Origin: Arcobacter sp. CECT 8983
GTDB lineage: Bacteria; Campylobacterota; Campylobacteria; Campylobacterales; Arcobacteraceae
Direction: 5' to 3'
Assembly: GCF_004118855.1 (NCBI RefSeq)
Contig: NZ_PDKF01000008.1
Span: 372,001 to 436,000 of the forward strand
Length of the DNA stretch: 64,000 nucleotides
How positions within the stretch are numbered: position 1 is the stretch's first letter; each line of letters opens with the position of its first letter. A model generated the notes under the pieces. It made no database searches. It saw only the letters and a list, made by a program, of their open reading frames with translations, and was not told the origin of the DNA. Made by a program: the position numbers and the translations under genes. Shown one piece after another: positions 4,073 through 14,983 of this stretch.

Positions 4073-6886
4073 TTAAGAGTTTATCTCTTTATCTAAATAA
4101 TATCCTGTGTATGATTTTGTTTTTTTATGGTTTGCTGCTAACTCTTCAGGCGTACCTTCAGCAACAATTTCTCCACCTTTACTTCCACCTTCAGGACCCA
4201 TATCAATAATCCAATCAGAGTTTTTGATAATATCTAAGTTATGTTCAATAACTAATACAGAGTTTCCTACTTCAACTAAATGGTGTAATACTTTTGTAAG
4301 TCTATCAACATCAGCAAAGTGTAAACCTGTAGTTGGCTCATCTAGTACATAAAGAGTATTTCCTGTATCTTTTTTACTTAACTCTTTTGATAACTTAATT
4401 CTTTGAGCTTCCCCTCCTGAAAGAGTAACTGCATTTTGTCCTAAAGTAATATATCCAAGTCCCACATCTGAAAGTGTTTGTAATTTTGCTTTAATTTTAG
4501 GCACTTTTACAAAGAATTCTAAAGCTTCATCAACACTCATATTAAGTACATCTGAAATATTTTTCCCTTTGTAAAGGATTTCTAAAGTTTGAGCATTATA
4601 TCTTCTACCTTGACAGTCATCACATTTAACCATTATATCTGGTAAGAAGTGCATTTCTATTTTAATTTCACCTTCACCTTGACATTTCTCACATCTTCCA
4701 CCTTTTACGTTAAATGAGAATCTACCAATTTTATAACCTCTAAGGCTTGCTTCTTTAGTTTTAGAAAATAGTGTTCTAATTTCATCCATTAAACCTGTAT
4801 ATGTTGCAGGATTAGATCTTGGAGTTCTTCCAATAGGACTTTGGTCAAGATAAATTACTTTATCAAGTTTTTCTAAGCCTTCAATTTCTACTCCATCTAC
4901 TTTTTTAACTTTTTTTGCATGGTTTAATAACTCTTTTGCCACAGGAAGTAGAGTTTGTAAAATAAGTGAAGATTTACCAGAACCTGAAACCCCTGTAATT
5001 GATACAAGGTTTTTAAGTGGTAATTCTACATCTAGATTTTTAATATTATTGATATTTACATTCTTGATTTTTATAAAATCTTCTTGAGGTCTATTATGTA
5101 GATAATCAATTTTCTTTTTACCACTTACATATTGAGCAGTTAAAGTTTTAGCTTTATTCATTTGTTTTAATGTTCCAGCAAAAACAATTTCACCACCAAA
5201 TTTACCTGCGTTTGGACCAATATCTACAATAAAATCTGCTGCTTCAATAGTCTCTTTATCATGTTCTACAACAATAACAGTATTACCTTTTTCTTGTAAA
5301 GCTTTAAGTGTTTTAATAAGTTTATTTGTATCTCTTTCGTGTAGTCCAATAGATGGTTCATCAAGTACATACATAACTCCTGTAAGACCTGAACCAATTT
5401 GTGAGGCAACTCTAATTCTTTGAGCTTCTCCTCCTGAAATTGTTCTTGCATCTCGTCCAAGAGTAATATATCCTAATCCCACATCATGTAAAAAGAAAAT
5501 TCTTTCACGTATTTCTTTTAAAATAGGGGCTGAAATCATCTTTTCTTGGTCACTAAAATATTCAAAATTTTTGTCATCTTGGAAAAATTTATGTGCTTCT
5601 TCAATAGGTTTATTTATAACATCTGAAATTGTTTTATTTGCAACATATACACTTTGAGATGAAGGTTTAAGTCTATTTCCTCCACAATCAGAGCAAATCT
5701 TTTCTGTCATAAACTCAGCCATTTCTTTTTCATCTTTAATCATGTCATAGGCAATTTTTACAATACCTTCCCATTTTCTTGTTAGACTATGTCTTTTCCA
5801 TGTAAATTTTGCTTCTTCAACTCCACCATGTAAAATTGATTTTTGTTGATGTTCAGGTAATTCTTTAAATGGAATTGTAATATCAATGCCAGCACCTTCA
5901 CAATAGGCCATAAGCATTTTAAAATAGTAACCTTTATTAAAACCATAAATAATTTTAATAGCCCCATCCTCTACAGGTAGTTCCTCATTTATTACTTTTT
6001 TCATATCTAAAGCATATCTAATACCAAGGCCATCACAAGAAGAACAAGCTCCTTTAGGTGAGTTAAATGAAAATGATAAAGGTTCAAGTGGTTCAAAAGA
6101 TATTTTACAATCAAAACAAGCCATATGTTCAGAGTAGTGGATATGCTTATCAACTCCTACTTCTTCATGGTTCATTACTTCAACTTCAAGTTCTCCAAAA
6201 GACTCTTTTAAACCTTTTTCAACATCTTGTGCAATTCTATCTTTGTTTTCATCTTTTACTACAACTCTATCAATTACAACTTTGATTGTATGCATTTTAT
6301 TTTTTTCTAGCTCAATATCTTCATCAAGTCTAGCCATAACACCATCAATCATAGCTCTTACATAACCTTTACCTCTTAAAGATTCTAGTAAGTCTGCAAA
6401 AGTACCTTTTTTTCTGTTAATTAGTGGAGCTAAAATAACAATTTTTGAGTTGTCAGGTAGTTTTAGTACTTGTTCTATTACATCAGTTGCAGACATTTTT
6501 GAAATAGGCTCTCCACATTTATGACAGTGTTGTTTTCCAACTCTTGCATATAAAAGTCTAAAGTAATCATATACTTCAGTAATAGTTCCAACAGTAGACC
6601 TTGGATTTTTAGATGTAGTCTTTTGATCAATAGCAATTGCAGGTGTTAGTCCTTCAATTCTTTCAACATCTGGTTTTCCCACTTTATCTAAGAATTGTCT
6701 TGCATAAGCACTTAAAGATTCTATATATCTTCTTTGTCCTTCTGCATATAAAGTATCAAAAGCTAAAGTAGACTTACCAGAACCAGAAAGCCCTGTAAAA
6801 ACTACAAGTTTATTTTTCGGAATCTCTAAATTTATATTTTTTAAGTTATTTTCTTTGGCATTAAATATTTTGATTGTATCTTGCAT
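4073..6886 (-). CDS. uvrA: Excinuclease ABC subunit A
   Basis: Full-length (937 residues) damage-recognition ATPase of nucleotide excision repair, which loads UvrB on damaged DNA. Two ABC modules are visible: Walker A GLSGSGKS (~32) and GVSGSGKS (~630), signature motifs SGGEAQRIRVA and LSGGEAQRIKL, and Walker B regions ending VLDEPSIGLH and VLDEPTTGLH. Zinc-binding CxxC pairs occur at HCHKCGE (~120), CFDCK/CSSCDG (~255-280), CSDCGG (~405) and CEKCQGEG/CDDCQG (~735-760). It is monocistronic. The ATG at 6886 begins the usual 'IKIFNAKENNLKNI' N-terminus. Confidence 0.97.
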   Translation of the reverse strand: MQDTIKIFNAKENNLKNINLEIPKNKLVVFTGLSGSGKSTLAFDTLYAEGQRRYIESLSAYARQFLDKVGKPDVERIEGLTPAIAIDQKTTSKNPRSTVGTITEVYDYFRLLYARVGKQHCHKCGEPISKMSATDVIEQVLKLPDNSKIVILAPLINRKKGTFADLLESLRGKGYVRAMIDGVMARLDEDIELEKNKMHTIKVVIDRVVVKDENKDRIAQDVEKGLKESFGELEVEVMNHEEVGVDKHIHYSEHMACFDCKISFEPLEPLSFSFNSPKGACSSCDGLGIRYALDMKKVINEELPVEDGAIKIIYGFNKGYYFKMLMAYCEGAGIDITIPFKELPEHQQKSILHGGVEEAKFTWKRHSLTRKWEGIVKIAYDMIKDEKEMAEFMTEKICSDCGGNRLKPSSQSVYVANKTISDVINKPIEEAHKFFQDDKNFEYFSDQEKMISAPILKEIRERIFFLHDVGLGYITLGRDARTISGGEAQRIRVASQIGSGLTGVMYVLDEPSIGLHERDTNKLIKTLKALQEKGNTVIVVEHDKETIEAADFIVDIGPNAGKFGGEIVFAGTLKQMNKAKTLTAQYVSGKKKIDYLHNRPQEDFIKIKNVNINNIKNLDVELPLKNLVSITGVSGSGKSSLILQTLLPVAKELLNHAKKVKKVDGVEIEGLEKLDKVIYLDQSPIGRTPRSNPATYTGLMDEIRTLFSKTKEASLRGYKIGRFSFNVKGGRCEKCQGEGEIKIEMHFLPDIMVKCDDCQGRRYNAQTLEILYKGKNISDVLNMSVDEALEFFVKVPKIKAKLQTLSDVGLGYITLGQNAVTLSGGEAQRIKLSKELSKKDTGNTLYVLDEPTTGLHFADVDRLTKVLHHLVEVGNSVLVIEHNLDIIKNSDWIIDMGPEGGSKGGEIVAEGTPEELAANHKKTKSYTGYYLDKEINS

Positions 6887-9131: not shown

Positions 9132-11672
9132 TTGAATAGATATATAAATAGTTTTGAGATACAAGGTGAGATTTTTTATTACTATGACATAAAAGCTGTA
9201 ATGCAAGAGAATAAAGAATTAAAAAAGTTACCTGTTGTTTTAAAAATACTTTTAGAAGCAAACTTACGAAATGCAAGTAATGAAAACGAACTTTATGAAA
9301 TAATCAATATTTTCAAAAATAAACAACGAGTAAATATAAAACTATATCCTTCAAGGGTTATAATGCAAGATTATACAGGGGTATCTGTACTTGTAGATTT
9401 AGCTTCCATGCGAGACTCTTTTTTAGAACTTGGAAAAAATGTTGAAGATGTAAATCCTAAGATAATAGTGGACTTAGTAGTTGATCACTCTTTAGATATA
9501 TATACAAATGAAGAAGAGTATAACTTTGATAGTGATATAGAAAAAGAGTATGAGTTAAATAAAGAGAAATACCAATTTATAAAATGGGCACAAAATAGTT
9601 TTGATAAGTTAAGAGTAGTACCACCTGGTTCTGGTATATGTCATCAAGTAAACTTAGAGTATTTATCAACTATTTTACACCTTAAAAGAGAAGAGAATAA
9701 AAACTTTATTTATCCAGAAACTTTAATTGGAACAGATTCCCATGCTCCTATGATAAACTCCCTTGGAGTATTAGGTTGGAAAGTAAATGAAATCCAAGCA
9801 AAAACATCTATACTTGGAATGCCAGTTTCTTTAACTTTACCACAAGTAGTAGGAGTAAATATCCATGGTAAACTAAAAGAAGGTGTTACTTCTTCTGATT
9901 TAGTATTAACACTAACAAGTAAATTAAAAGAGTGTAATATAAAAGGAAAGCTTGTAGAGTTTCATGGAAATGGATTAAAACATTTAACCTTAGAGGATAG
10001 ATCTACAATTGCAAATATGGCCCCTGAGTATGAAGCAGTATGCTCTTTTTTTACTATAGATGATAAAACAATAGATTATTTTAATAAGACAAGGGACAAT
10101 GAAGATTATGGATATTTATTAAAAGAGTATTTACAAAGACAAGAACTTTTTTATAGTGATGAGGTATTAGAGTTTGATGAAGTAATAAATTTTGATTTAG
10201 AAGAGTTAGAACCTGCAATTGCTGGACCTAATAAAGTACATACACATATAAAAGTAGAAGAGTTAAAAGAACAACAAATTAATAAAAGTGGTTCATATTT
10301 AAAAGACTTAGATGTAGTAATTGCTTCTATTACTTCTTGTACAACAACTTCAAATCCATATTTAATACTACACGCTGCACTTGTGGCAAAAAAAGCTTAT
10401 GAGTTTGGATTACATACTAAAGAGTATGTTAAAACTTCTTTTTCTCCTGGTTCCTTAGCTATTAAAGAGTTTTTAAAAAAATTAGATTTACTTAAATACT
10501 TAGAACACTTAGGTTTTTATATTACTGGATATGCTTGCGAGCTATTTGGTAATTTAGAAGATAAGTATGAGTTTGATATAAAAGATAACAAGTTAGACGT
10601 GTGTTCTTTAACTTCAGGTAGTAAAAACTTTCAAAATAGATTACATCCTTTAATAAACTATAATTATTTATCATCTCCTTCTTTAGTGGTTATATATTCT
10701 ATAGTGGGTACGACAAAGTTTGATTTATTTGAAGATGTAATAAGTACAATTGATGATAAAGATATTTACTTAAAAGATTTATGGTCTAGTTCTAAAGAAG
10801 TAGGGGATTATATGAGTGAATTAGATTATACTTTATATAAAGACATATACAAAGATATCTTCAAAGGAAATGAGTTTTGGCAAAACTTAGAAGTAGAAAA
10901 TACAAAGAATTATAAATGGAATGATAATTCTACGTATATACAAGCATCTATGTTTTATACTGAAAATAAAGAAGAAAAGTTAGATATTCATGGAGCAAGA
11001 TTGTTAGCTTTATTTGATGATAACATAACTACTGAACAAATTTCACCTATGGGGCAAATACCTTTATACTCTACAGCTTCTAAGTATTTAGAAGAAAAAG
11101 GAATAAAATCCTTTGAGTACAATACCTTTGGTAGTAGAAAAGCTAATGCCAAGCTAATGATAAGAGGAATATTTGAACATCCTAAATTAAAAAATAGAAT
11201 GGTATCAAAAGAGTCTGCTTATACTTTTGATTATGAAAATAATGAAATAGTATCTATTTATGAAAAATCACAAAAATTTAAAGATTTAAAAAAGCCTTTA
11301 GTTGTAGTTGCAGGTCATAATTTTGGTATGGGAAAACAAAAAGAGTGGGCAAGTAAGGGAATGAACTTACTTGGTGTAAAAGTAATTATTGCAAAATCAT
11401 TTGATGAAAAATATAGAAAAGACTTAATTGCTTATGGAATATTACCTTTAGAGTTTATTGATGATGATATTGATTCATTAAAATTAAAAGGAGATGAAAA
11501 TCTATCTTTTATTAGTGATAAACTTATAATTGAGGGCAAAATAAAAGCTTATATAAATAGAGGATATGATGAGGTTCAAATAGATTTAAAAGTAAGAATT
11601 GATACAAAAATAGAATTAGAATATTATAAAAATGGAGGAATATTTCCATTTTTATTTAATAGTTTTAAATAG
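9132..11672 (+). CDS. Divergent aconitase A-like protein lacking catalytic and Fe-S residues
   Basis: An 846-residue protein that aligns end to end with aconitase A/IRP proteins: RVIMQDYTG (~77), VDLVVDHS (~112), PPGSGICHQVNLEYL, GTDSHAPMINSLGVLGW, NMAPEYEA, SCTTTSNP with cysteine 403, ISPMGQIP, and GSRKAN (~667). Yet the second cluster motif, GCTTCIGNSG in AcnA, reads ACELFGNLED: Cys469 remains but its CxxC partner is gone. The swivelling-domain GSGSSRDW reads GMGKQKEW (734-739), losing the catalytic serine and substrate arginine, and NRNF reads SKNF (497-500). Aconitase activity is therefore doubtful. TTG start behind GGGAAAAG. The housekeeping aconitase of this phylum is normally AcnB. It may be a pseudoenzyme, an RNA-binding regulator or a hydro-lyase with another substrate. 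Confidence 0.85.
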   Translation: MNRYINSFEIQGEIFYYYDIKAVMQENKELKKLPVVLKILLEANLRNASNENELYEIINIFKNKQRVNIKLYPSRVIMQDYTGVSVLVDLASMRDSFLELGKNVEDVNPKIIVDLVVDHSLDIYTNEEEYNFDSDIEKEYELNKEKYQFIKWAQNSFDKLRVVPPGSGICHQVNLEYLSTILHLKREENKNFIYPETLIGTDSHAPMINSLGVLGWKVNEIQAKTSILGMPVSLTLPQVVGVNIHGKLKEGVTSSDLVLTLTSKLKECNIKGKLVEFHGNGLKHLTLEDRSTIANMAPEYEAVCSFFTIDDKTIDYFNKTRDNEDYGYLLKEYLQRQELFYSDEVLEFDEVINFDLEELEPAIAGPNKVHTHIKVEELKEQQINKSGSYLKDLDVVIASITSCTTTSNPYLILHAALVAKKAYEFGLHTKEYVKTSFSPGSLAIKEFLKKLDLLKYLEHLGFYITGYACELFGNLEDKYEFDIKDNKLDVCSLTSGSKNFQNRLHPLINYNYLSSPSLVVIYSIVGTTKFDLFEDVISTIDDKDIYLKDLWSSSKEVGDYMSELDYTLYKDIYKDIFKGNEFWQNLEVENTKNYKWNDNSTYIQASMFYTENKEEKLDIHGARLLALFDDNITTEQISPMGQIPLYSTASKYLEEKGIKSFEYNTFGSRKANAKLMIRGIFEHPKLKNRMVSKESAYTFDYENNEIVSIYEKSQKFKDLKKPLVVVAGHNFGMGKQKEWASKGMNLLGVKVIIAKSFDEKYRKDLIAYGILPLEFIDDDIDSLKLKGDENLSFISDKLIIEGKIKAYINRGYDEVQIDLKVRIDTKIELEYYKNGGIFPFLFNSFK

Positions 11673-12399
11673 TTTTATAAACCATTGAGATAAAAATTAC
11701 AAGATATAAAAGCAAAATATATTTTTTATATGATGTTGATTTTATACTATTTTTTAATTTTATTCCAAAATATACTCCAATAAGTGAAGCTATACCTACA
11801 GTTGCACCTTCTTTAAAAAGCATTTGATTATGTATTGTTAAAGAAGTAAATCCTGCAATAGATGAAAAGATAACAAAAAATAGTCCTAATGATGTAGCTT
11901 TTTTTAAATCATAATTTAAAAATCTAACAAGTATGGGAGTTAAAAGAATTGAACCACCAACACCAATACTCATTGCAGTAACTCCTATTAATGCACCTAT
12001 AATAAATAAAAAGAATTTACTACTACTCTTTTTTTCATCTTCATGTATTTCTGCTGGAGATTTAAATATTGAGATTATAGAATAAAATAAGATAACTATA
12101 AAAACATATTGTAATGTTTCATTTGAAAAGTTAGTGATAATAAAACCACTTTGTAAACCTCCAAAAAAACCACCAATTCCAATGATTAAACCATCTTTTA
12201 AAACATTTTTAGCTTTTTTAGAGTTAAGAAAAGAACCATAAATTGAAGAAAATATCATTTGCATAATAGATATTGAAACAGCTTCTTTCATAATAAACCC
12301 AGCAAATAAAAGCATAGGAACAAGAACCATTCCTCCTCCAACTCCAAAAAAACCAGAGATAAATCCAGTTAGTGCTCCAAATGCTAATAATTCATACAT
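11665..12399 (-). CDS. TSUP-family permease (TauE/SafE sulfite exporter-like)
   Basis: A 244-residue inner-membrane protein with about eight hydrophobic helices and the two TauE repeats, each opening with a glycine-rich turn: 'GFISGFFGVGGGMVLVPML' (~12) and 'GALIGVTAMSIGVGGSILLTP' (~138). TSUP permeases export or import sulfite, sulfoacetate and other organosulfur anions. It lies 3 bp downstream of cysE, so a link to sulfur metabolism is plausible, though the family is broad. Its 3' end overlaps the aconitase-like gene by 8 bp on the other strand. Confidence 0.85.
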   Translation of the reverse strand: MYELLAFGALTGFISGFFGVGGGMVLVPMLLFAGFIMKEAVSISIMQMIFSSIYGSFLNSKKAKNVLKDGLIIGIGGFFGGLQSGFIITNFSNETLQYVFIVILFYSIISIFKSPAEIHEDEKKSSSKFFLFIIGALIGVTAMSIGVGGSILLTPILVRFLNYDLKKATSLGLFFVIFSSIAGFTSLTIHNQMLFKEGATVGIASLIGVYFGIKLKNSIKSTSYKKYILLLYLVIFISMVYKTI

Positions 12400-12402
12400 G
12401 TT

Positions 12403-13185
12403 TTACTTCTTTATAGAGTTCATTGCATTAATAAATTTATTGTAATCTTCTTCTAATCTTTTGTCTTTGTCACTTACATCAATACCATCTTGTTCTTTTA
12501 AAACTTCTTCTAAAATATGAATTCTTTCAATAAGATATTTAAACATCTCTTTATTTATATCAGGCAAATCATCATGTGCAAGTTTACAATTCTTTTTATC
12601 TTTTTTGATAATTTTAGCAGGAACACCAACTGCAGTTGAGTTTTTAGGTACATCACATACTACAACAGAATTTGCTCCAACTTTAGAGTTTTTATCAATT
12701 ATGATATTTCCTAAAACTTTAGCTCCACTACCAATAACTGCATTTTTTCTAATAGTAGGGTGACGTTTACCCTTATCAAGACTTACTCCACCTAAAGTTA
12801 CCCCTTGATAAATAAGAACATCATCTTCTATAACAGTAGTGGCTCCAATAACAACGCCAATTGCATGGTCTATAAATACTCTTCTTCCAATTGTTGCAGC
12901 TGGATGAATATCAGTTTTAGTAAAAAGTGAACCTATGCCTACTAGAGCTCTAGCAGTTTTTGTCCATCCTTTATTATAAAGTCTATTTGCAATTCTATGA
13001 TTCATAATTGCCCAAACTCCAGGATAGTTAAAAAATAGTTCAAAGCTAGAGTCTAAAGCAGGGTCATTTAATTTTGGAACAGAAAAATCTTCTTTTATCT
13101 GTTGCCATAAAGATATCTTTTTTTGTTCATTTAAAATGTGTGTTTTTATTTTTTCATGTATATTTTGTTCATTTATTTTATTCAT
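12403..13185 (-). CDS. cysE: Serine O-acetyltransferase
   Basis: A 260-residue cytoplasmic enzyme making O-acetylserine from serine and acetyl-CoA, the first step of cysteine synthesis. A helical N-terminal domain (~1-95) is followed by left-handed beta-helix hexapeptide repeats (~95-200): 'DIHPAATIGRRVFIDHAIGV', 'TLGGVSLDKGKRHPTI', 'VGANSVV', 'GVPAKI'. The catalytic histidines in 'FIDHAIGV' and 'GKRHPTI' are present. The C-terminal extension (~200-260) is acidic and helical and longer than in EpsC-type enzymes. It overlaps speA by 8 bp in the same operon. Confidence 0.93.
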   Translation of the reverse strand: MNKINEQNIHEKIKTHILNEQKKISLWQQIKEDFSVPKLNDPALDSSFELFFNYPGVWAIMNHRIANRLYNKGWTKTARALVGIGSLFTKTDIHPAATIGRRVFIDHAIGVVIGATTVIEDDVLIYQGVTLGGVSLDKGKRHPTIRKNAVIGSGAKVLGNIIIDKNSKVGANSVVVCDVPKNSTAVGVPAKIIKKDKKNCKLAHDDLPDINKEMFKYLIERIHILEEVLKEQDGIDVSDKDKRLEEDYNKFINAMNSIKK

Positions 13186-14983
13186 TATAACTCCACGCTG
13201 TTTTTAAATAACTATTTTCATGTAAATACTTCTCTAAAATTTCATAGGTGTTTTTATCTAAATTTTTTTCTAAAATATTTTTTATTTCATCAGTGTCATA
13301 ATCAATATCTTCTAATATATCAATAATTTTTTGTGATTCAAGTATTTTTTCTAATTTCAATTTATTATTTTCAAAAACAACATTAACTTCAGTAGGGTGA
13401 GAAAATAAATTATGTTTCATTCCTAAAGTATCTTGATAAGCACCTACATTAAAAAAGGCAAGATAATATTCTTCTTTTTCTAAGTCAACATCATGTAAAT
13501 ATAGAGGTTTTCTTGCATTAAACTCTATTTCTCCATCACTATCACAAGTTATATCCCATAAAGAGGCACTTCTTGTAGGTTTTTTATCTAAATGTGTAAT
13601 TGGCATTATAGGAAATTCTTGGTCTATTCCCCAAAGATCAGGTAGTGACTGAAAGATTGAAAAGTTTAATAAATATTTTTCTTGTATTTTATTATCAATT
13701 CTTTTTAACTCTGCATAATCTTCTATTTCAAGTAAACTTATAGACTTTTTAATTATTAACTGTGCTAATATCTCTGCATTACTTCTATCTTGTAAATCAA
13801 TATAACCTAAATCAAAAAGTTTTAATAATGATTCTAAATGATCCATACTATCATGCATATATTCTAAAGCAGTTTTTCTATTAATATCTTCATATAATTC
13901 ATTTAATTCTTCTATTAAAGGAGGATTAACTTCTTTTAATCTTAAGTTATTTTCTTCATATTCTGCTGAAAATAATTCAAGTACAGGTGCTATTAACACA
14001 GTACTATTTGCAGAAATAAATCTTCCTGATTCTGTATAGATATCTGGTTCTTCAACACCTTTTTGTTTTGCAATATTTTTAAGTGTAAAAATTACATCAT
14101 TTGCAAACTCTTGTAAATGGTATTGTGTAGTTCTTTGATATTGTGAATATTCAACTGTTAATCCACCACCAATATTAATTGCACTTAAATTTATAGCACC
14201 CATATTTTTAAGTTCAGCATAAATATGACCTGACTCTTTTAAAGCTTTTTTTAGTGGCTTAATAGTTGTCATTGCAGAACCAATATGGAAATGAATCATT
14301 GTTAAACAATCAAGTAAGTTATTTGTTTTAAGTAGTTCATAGGCTTCTAAAATCTCAGTTGAACTAAGCCCAAATTTTGAGTCAATTCCACCTGATTTCG
14401 CCCAAGCTCCACCACCACTATTAAATAGTCTAACTCTAATTCCTACACTAGGAGTTGGTAAAGATGTTTCTTGTTCTACTTCAAGTATTATTTCAAGTTC
14501 AGTTAAACCTTCGATAATAATAGTTATATCATGACCCATTTTTTTAGCAATAAATGCCATATGAATCATTTCTTTATCTTTAAATCCATTAATAGTAATA
14601 GGTGCTCCATACTTATTATAAGTCATAGCAAGAAATAGTTCGGCTTTACTTCCTGCTTCTAAGCCATAACCAAATTCTTCACCTGATTTTACTAATGGTA
14701 ATAAAAAATTTGGTAATTGATTTACCTTTAAAGGAAATACTGCATTAAACTTCCCTTTATAATCATACTCTTTAATAGCATTGTTATATAAAGTAAACAG
14801 TTTTGAAATCTGTTTCTTTGTTAGATGTGGAAACCTAAGCAATAAAGGACCTTTAAAATCTTGAGCCCTAATGTCTTTTACTATATCTATAATTGCAGGC
14901 TTTGATGCATGATTTATTTTAACAAATCCTCCATCAATGAAAAAGTTATCATCAGCCCAAAGATCAATACCATAATTTTCCAA
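13178..14983 (-). CDS. speA: Biosynthetic arginine decarboxylase
   Basis: A 601-residue PLP enzyme converting arginine to agmatine for polyamine synthesis. The pyridoxal lysine lies in 'FPLKVNQ' (Lys86) and the alanine-racemase-like barrel includes 'GYGLEAGSKAEL', 'IHFHIGSAMT' and 'INIGGGLTVEYS'. The decarboxylase C-terminal barrel contains 'CDSDGEIEF' with the catalytic cysteine of the family. It is slightly shorter than the ~630-residue E. coli enzyme. It sits 2 bp after hisS and overlaps cysE, so the operon couples tRNA charging, polyamine and cysteine genes. Confidence 0.95.
   Translation of the reverse strand: MENYGIDLWADDNFFIDGGFVKINHASKPAIIDIVKDIRAQDFKGPLLLRFPHLTKKQISKLFTLYNNAIKEYDYKGKFNAVFPLKVNQLPNFLLPLVKSGEEFGYGLEAGSKAELFLAMTYNKYGAPITINGFKDKEMIHMAFIAKKMGHDITIIIEGLTELEIILEVEQETSLPTPSVGIRVRLFNSGGGAWAKSGGIDSKFGLSSTEILEAYELLKTNNLLDCLTMIHFHIGSAMTTIKPLKKALKESGHIYAELKNMGAINLSAINIGGGLTVEYSQYQRTTQYHLQEFANDVIFTLKNIAKQKGVEEPDIYTESGRFISANSTVLIAPVLELFSAEYEENNLRLKEVNPPLIEELNELYEDINRKTALEYMHDSMDHLESLLKLFDLGYIDLQDRSNAEILAQLIIKKSISLLEIEDYAELKRIDNKIQEKYLLNFSIFQSLPDLWGIDQEFPIMPITHLDKKPTRSASLWDITCDSDGEIEFNARKPLYLHDVDLEKEEYYLAFFNVGAYQDTLGMKHNLFSHPTEVNVVFENNKLKLEKILESQKIIDILEDIDYDTDEIKNILEKNLDKNTYEILEKYLHENSYLKTAWSYNE

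Follow-up and report, generated by a model that had tools for sequence, protein, structure and literature searches.

An AcnA-type aconitase homolog with a decayed active site in the Arcobacteraceae

Active-site residues of the 9132-11672 protein

Aconitases are a textbook case of moonlighting proteins, in which loss of the Fe-S cluster turns the enzyme into an RNA-binding regulator. An AcnA-derived open reading frame in a 64,000-nucleotide stretch of DNA from Arcobacter sp. CECT 8983 (contig NZ_PDKF01000008.1; hereafter the window) raises the question of what an aconitase homolog does when its catalytic and cluster residues are missing: whether it is an RNA-binding regulator, an enzyme of altered chemistry, a decaying relic, or a protein kept for another non-catalytic function.

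The 9132-11672 product has the full-length AcnA architecture, with matches to both the Pfam Aconitase (E 1e-115) and Aconitase_C domains. Its best solved relative by sequence is human IRP1, to which it aligns over nearly its full length, bearing out the AcnA/IRP homology assigned in the initial annotation. Against the AcnA equivalog model TIGR01341 the protein scores 866.9 bits, below the cut-off of 945, and the intact AcnA of genome G033 scores 1322.9 bits. Its score against the AcnD model TIGR02333 is 565.7 bits, far below the cut-off of 1419.85. The PRK09277 "AcnA" subfamily cut-off of 686 bits is passed with 915.8 bits, so that the gene would receive an aconitate hydratase annotation; an apparently dead AcnA relative can thus slip through this model.

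The features of the locus are listed in Table 1. The window protein is without one of the three Fe-S cysteines, the catalytic Ser, R536, R780, and the Asp-His pair (IRP1 numbering), and it retains 12 of the 20 residues that make up the active and cluster sites of aconitases. The third cluster ligand is missing behind a four-residue gap in the alignment at ACELFGNLED, leaving C403 and C469. In window numbering, the NRNF motif is altered by N497S and R498K, and the catalytic Ser and substrate-binding Arg positions of AcnA carry S735K, R737K, and R498K. R541 (window R503) is retained in the window protein and lost in most relatives. The Arg of GSR is the equivalent of IRP1 R712; in IRP1 the TNRGL arginine is R699. 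The initial annotation had read the loss of one ligand in the second cluster motif, the replacement of GSSRDW by GKQKEW and of NRNF by SKNF, and the preservation of GTDSH and GSR directly from the sequence, and alignment agrees on each.

Table 1. Features of the AcnA-like locus in window coordinates. Motif residues are in IRP1 numbering unless described as window residues; domain limits are presumed, having been transferred from IRP1 by alignment and in part assumed
Feature	Position	Strand	Remarks
uvrA	4073..6886	-	Conserved flank, divergent from the AcnA-like gene
AcnA-derived ORF (putative pseudoenzyme), 846 aa	9132..11672	+	TTG start
N-terminal segment, window residues 30-61	9219..9314	+	Clade-specific invariants L30, K38, N44, F61 (LPxxLKILLExNLR)
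GTDSH	9729..9743	+	Intact in the window copy; decayed in many relatives (D 26/34, S 17/34, H 17/34)
Domain 3 (approximate), window residues ~358-553	10203..10790	+	Bears all Fe-S ligands; missing in frame in the G064 and G066 orthologs
SITSCTTTSNP	10326..10358	+	First Fe-S ligand C403 (window residue) retained; motif comparison
ACELFGNLED	10533..10562	+	Second ligand C469 (window residue) retained, third gone; motif comparison
SKNFQNR	10620..10640	+	Replaces NRNFxxR; N535 and R536 substituted, R541 retained
TTEQIS	11028..11045	+	Replaces TTDHIS; Asp635Glu, His636Gln (window residues); absent from the initial annotation
GSR	11130..11138	+	Window Arg R669 (IRP1 R712) invariant across the clade, 34/34
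Domain-4 hairpin, window residues 693-705	11208..11246	+	Clade-specific invariant D700; K693 and E705 invariant; hairpin from model
GKQKEW	11331..11348	+	Replaces GSSRDW; catalytic Ser and substrate Arg gone, Trp retained
TSUP-family permease gene	11665..12399	-	Conserved convergent flank; 8-base overlap with the 3' end of the AcnA-like gene; cysE, speA, and hisS follow

An AlphaFold2 model of the window protein (pLDDT 75, pTM 0.76), whose best PDB matches are an AcnA model and IRP1, predicts that the aconitase-like fold is retained. The weakest stretches of the model (465-475, 496-503, 639-650, and 664-682) overlap the former active-site loops, which is suggestive and no stronger than that, the predictor's alignment consisting of AcnA enzymes and one close ortholog.

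Distribution and divergence of the clade

Orthologs with 38-95% identity are present in 37 of the 105 family genomes, representing 8 of 20 genera, and none was found outside the family among 299 genomes drawn from the order. Close orthologs at 95, 87, and 72% identity have most of the changes seen in the window protein. The initial annotation had named a sequencing error in a single strain as one outcome that would undo its reading; the orthologs in 37 genomes rule out both a sequencing error and a single-strain oddity.

A maximum likelihood tree of 46 proteins was built in quick mode, with SH-aLRT as the only support measure. The 34 usable members fall into a single clade with an SH-aLRT of 100; this clade adjoins the AcnA proteins of gamma- and betaproteobacteria and is separate from the AcnD paralogs. 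Intact AcnA proteins beyond this clade occur in G033 within the family and in G235, which belongs to another family. The G033 protein (locus L035, C5:116000-131000) is a second, intact AcnA in a genome that also carries a copy of the AcnA-like gene; it sits elsewhere in that genome, within a long co-directional gene run, and is probably a later acquisition.

In most neighborhoods the gene lies between uvrA and a convergent TSUP-cysE-speA-hisS-tmk-coaD block, and no conserved operon partner was detected in the ortholog neighborhoods. Where the gene is absent, uvrA adjoins the TSUP gene or is separated from it by different genes, and no remnant of the gene was found at the empty uvrA-TSUP site of G058, G080, G084, and others. 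The same interval contains unrelated genes that vary by genome (L055-L074, L179-L189), resembling an insertion hot spot. Searches for a phage or plasmid origin returned ordinary AcnA matches only. Two unannotated records of 3-6 kb assigned to Listeria phages LM 4-11-1 and LM 4-14-1 (OR847101.1, OR848887.1) contain an AcnA homolog matching over 99% of the query, and are possibly bacterial DNA deposited as phage.

Start codons in the clade, counted by eye in the full or shortened members, are TTG in 27 of 34, ATG in 5, and GTG in 2, in contrast to uvrA, which starts with ATG in 21/21. Retention of the weak TTG start suggests that translation may be low or controlled. A conserved non-ATG start is also seen in speA, the arginine decarboxylase gene at window positions 13178-14983 (TTG in 17/21 and GTG in 4/21 orthologs).

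To follow the active site across the clade, each protein was scored for these 20 established active-site and cluster-site residues. Intact AcnA has 20/20 and AcnD 19/20, whereas the count in the clade ranges from 1 (G064) to 16 (G061), and no member is complete. The third cysteine is present in only 3 of the 37 clade sequences (G061, G083, and G075), all of which retain all three Cys. The catalytic Ser is kept in 1/34, R536 in 6/34, R541 in 4/34, and R780 in 10/34. Losses vary by lineage, with the same cleft positions carrying D, E, K, N, I, L, or gaps. The idea that the losses might define a conserved clade therefore stands in part: the clade is conserved, but the sets of losses differ per lineage and provide no signature. 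Cleft sites are retained less often than the remaining positions that do not vary in AcnA and AcnD (0.37 versus 0.58, permutation p 0.003), also when only polar and charged sites are compared (0.37 versus 0.54, p 0.02), where the p values serve as guides, neighboring sites and related sequences not being independent. This suggests that the cleft has been specifically released, beyond general divergence. All the cysteines survive in three members that represent both main branches, whereas the catalytic Ser is gone from almost the entire clade. Loss of catalysis therefore probably came first, with the cluster lost afterwards on several occasions. The G061 protein, with three Cys and 16/20 cleft residues, might still bind a cluster.

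In the proteins of G064 (672 aa) and G066 (622 aa), domain 3 is missing as a result of in-frame deletion. The end points differ between the two proteins, and domains 1-2, the linker, and domain 4 have been spared. The two are separate assemblies without N runs. Domain 3 is dispensable in two lineages; its loss may have happened twice, or once with subsequent drift.

The clade evolves under purifying selection. In nine close pairs dN/dS (NG86) is 0.056-0.24, within the range of neighboring genes, with dS approaching saturation in the wider pairs; in most pairs the value exceeds that of AcnD. Open frames are uninterrupted in 34 members, including those with as little as 38% identity, which together with dN/dS disfavors a strict pseudogene. 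Similarity within the clade is higher than among AcnA proteins in residues 1-60 (0.48 versus 0.38) and in linker residues 531-600 (0.43 versus 0.37), whereas similarity in the former core regions is much lower in the clade than among AcnA proteins. Five residues, N44, F61, E196, E288, and D700, hardly vary in the clade and do not occur in any of the AcnA and AcnD proteins compared; the segments 30-44 and 693-705 contain additional invariants gained by the clade. Such gain and subsequent maintenance of sites is difficult to explain for a relic gene, and it points to a newly formed surface on domains 1 and 4.

Candidate functions of the AcnA-like protein

The explanation that we favor, at a probability of roughly 55%, is that the gene encodes a conserved pseudoenzyme, non-catalytic and functioning in binding or regulation, with a partner bound through domains 1 and 4. 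It has the general attributes of a pseudoenzyme, namely a homologous fold (in the model), loss of catalytic residues, and retained purifying selection. The initial annotation had likewise taken the protein for a pseudoenzyme from the window sequence, and this part of the reading is well supported by the lineage-wise decay of the cleft, the deletion of domain 3 in two members, and the purifying selection on the remainder. An AcnA-type aconitase would have been acquired or duplicated before the family diversified, and would then have lost hydro-lyase activity, probably because AcnB, with AcnD for 2-methylisocitrate, covers the chemistry, while a folded, non-catalytic protein was kept. The acnB search proposed in the initial annotation located an AcnB elsewhere in the genome with intact GSSR and CSLC motifs; the genome also encodes a LeuC-like protein and an AcnD scoring 1521.7 against the TIGR02333 cut-off of 1419.85. 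AcnB is present in all family genomes bearing the AcnA-like gene except two drafts (G019 and G096) and, being intact and near universal in the family, is able to supply TCA-cycle activity. The putative binding surface is placed on the N-terminal helices of domain 1 and on domain 4 because most clade-specific invariants lie there. Any regulatory or scaffolding role would operate without iron sensing through a cluster, and candidate partners are a protein such as AcnB, or nucleic acid. A fuller version, in which a family-wide pseudo-aconitase without Fe-S chemistry, its cluster domain gone in two lineages, regulates by way of the new surface on domains 1 and 4, perhaps with AcnB as its target or by contacting nucleic acid in a non-IRP manner, is offered more tentatively, at somewhat short of even odds.

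A dedicated RNA-binding regulator, also proposed in the initial annotation, would be an apo-aconitase that has lost its cluster for good, binds mRNA as apo-IRP1 and apo-AcnA/AcnB do, and cannot return to the enzyme form. Precedent is provided by the apo forms of E. coli AcnB (PMC4150767), mycobacterial AcnA (PMC7527780), and the H. pylori aconitase (PMC8322730), all of which bind RNA, and by IRP1, which becomes a constitutive RNA binder upon mutation of any cluster Cys (PMC7181819). We compared the IRE contacts of IRP1 (R269, S371, K379, T438, N439, S681, P682, R713, R780, D781, and W782; PMC4184891) with the clade, and their retention is mixed. Favorable residues are found at S681 and P682 (27/34 each), W782 (32/34), and R269 (Lys in 23/34), but S681, P682, and W782 are also invariant in ordinary AcnA and so are not evidence of RNA binding. 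Other contacts are lost or variable: R713 is Arg in 9/34, R780 is kept in 10/34, T438 in 11/34, N439 in 7/34, and K379 is Lys or Arg in 11/34; the S371 position is Ala in bacterial AcnA also. Nor is charge raised, the pI of 5.0-5.9 being the same as that of AcnA. Because these contact residues vary and two members have no domain 3, IRP1-like RNA recognition is unlikely as a shared function of the clade, and the RNA regulator as a whole appears rather unlikely.

We regard it as distinctly improbable that the gene is a slowly decaying relic without a remaining selected function. Such a gene would explain the broken or partial copies in G088 (at a contig edge), G089, and G098, the shrinking length in G055, G011, G064, and G066, and an evolution mostly faster than that of AcnD (72% versus 94% identity between G000 and G056, with the pair G086-G087 as an exception). 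The gene is also dispensable, being cleanly absent from many relatives (G058, G080, and G084 among them) and eroded in the three genomes with broken copies. This dispensability counts against the favored reading, as do the missing conserved operon partner and the near-complete cleft of the G061 protein. Set against this decay are the low dN/dS, the unbroken frames, and the sites gained and then held invariant. Least probable by far is an enzyme of altered chemistry, a hydro-lyase using the same cleft either without metal or with a different one; the initial annotation had also entertained a hydro-lyase of altered chemistry. The fold is kept in the model, and the conservative D to E and R to K swaps of the window copy resemble a tuned site, but no set of cleft residues is conserved across the clade, and domain 3 is absent from two members.

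If the preferred reading, a non-catalytic binding or regulatory protein, is correct, the enzyme half of a moonlighting protein has been permanently lost by different routes in different genera, with the cluster domain dropped once or twice, and the clade would be a natural experiment on the parts of the fold that the non-catalytic role requires. We found no description of inactive bacterial aconitases or of the Arcobacter paralog in the open-access literature searched, a scope that leaves most subscription journals outside.

Comparison with known aconitases

The nearest intact relatives in the tree are the AcnA proteins of gamma- and betaproteobacteria (aconitate hydratase 1, TIGR01341), which share domain order, fold, and about 35-41% identity with the clade but possess all 20 cleft residues, including the three Cys, compared with 1-16 in the clade. 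AcnD, the Fe/S-dependent 2-methylisocitrate dehydratase (TIGR02333), is a paralog in the same genomes with ~35% identity, and differs in its intact active site, slower evolution, and separate clade. AcnB belongs to the same superfamily, and its apo form binds RNA in other bacteria; it differs from the AcnA-like protein in domain order, and in being intact and near universal in the family. A functional parallel is offered by IRP2, which is not known to have aconitase activity, and cluster-free IRP1, in which the aconitase fold serves a regulatory rather than an enzymatic role, as is putatively the case for the clade. The IRPs, however, rely on their RNA-binding cleft, whereas the clade varies in several of the contact residues and can drop domain 3 altogether.
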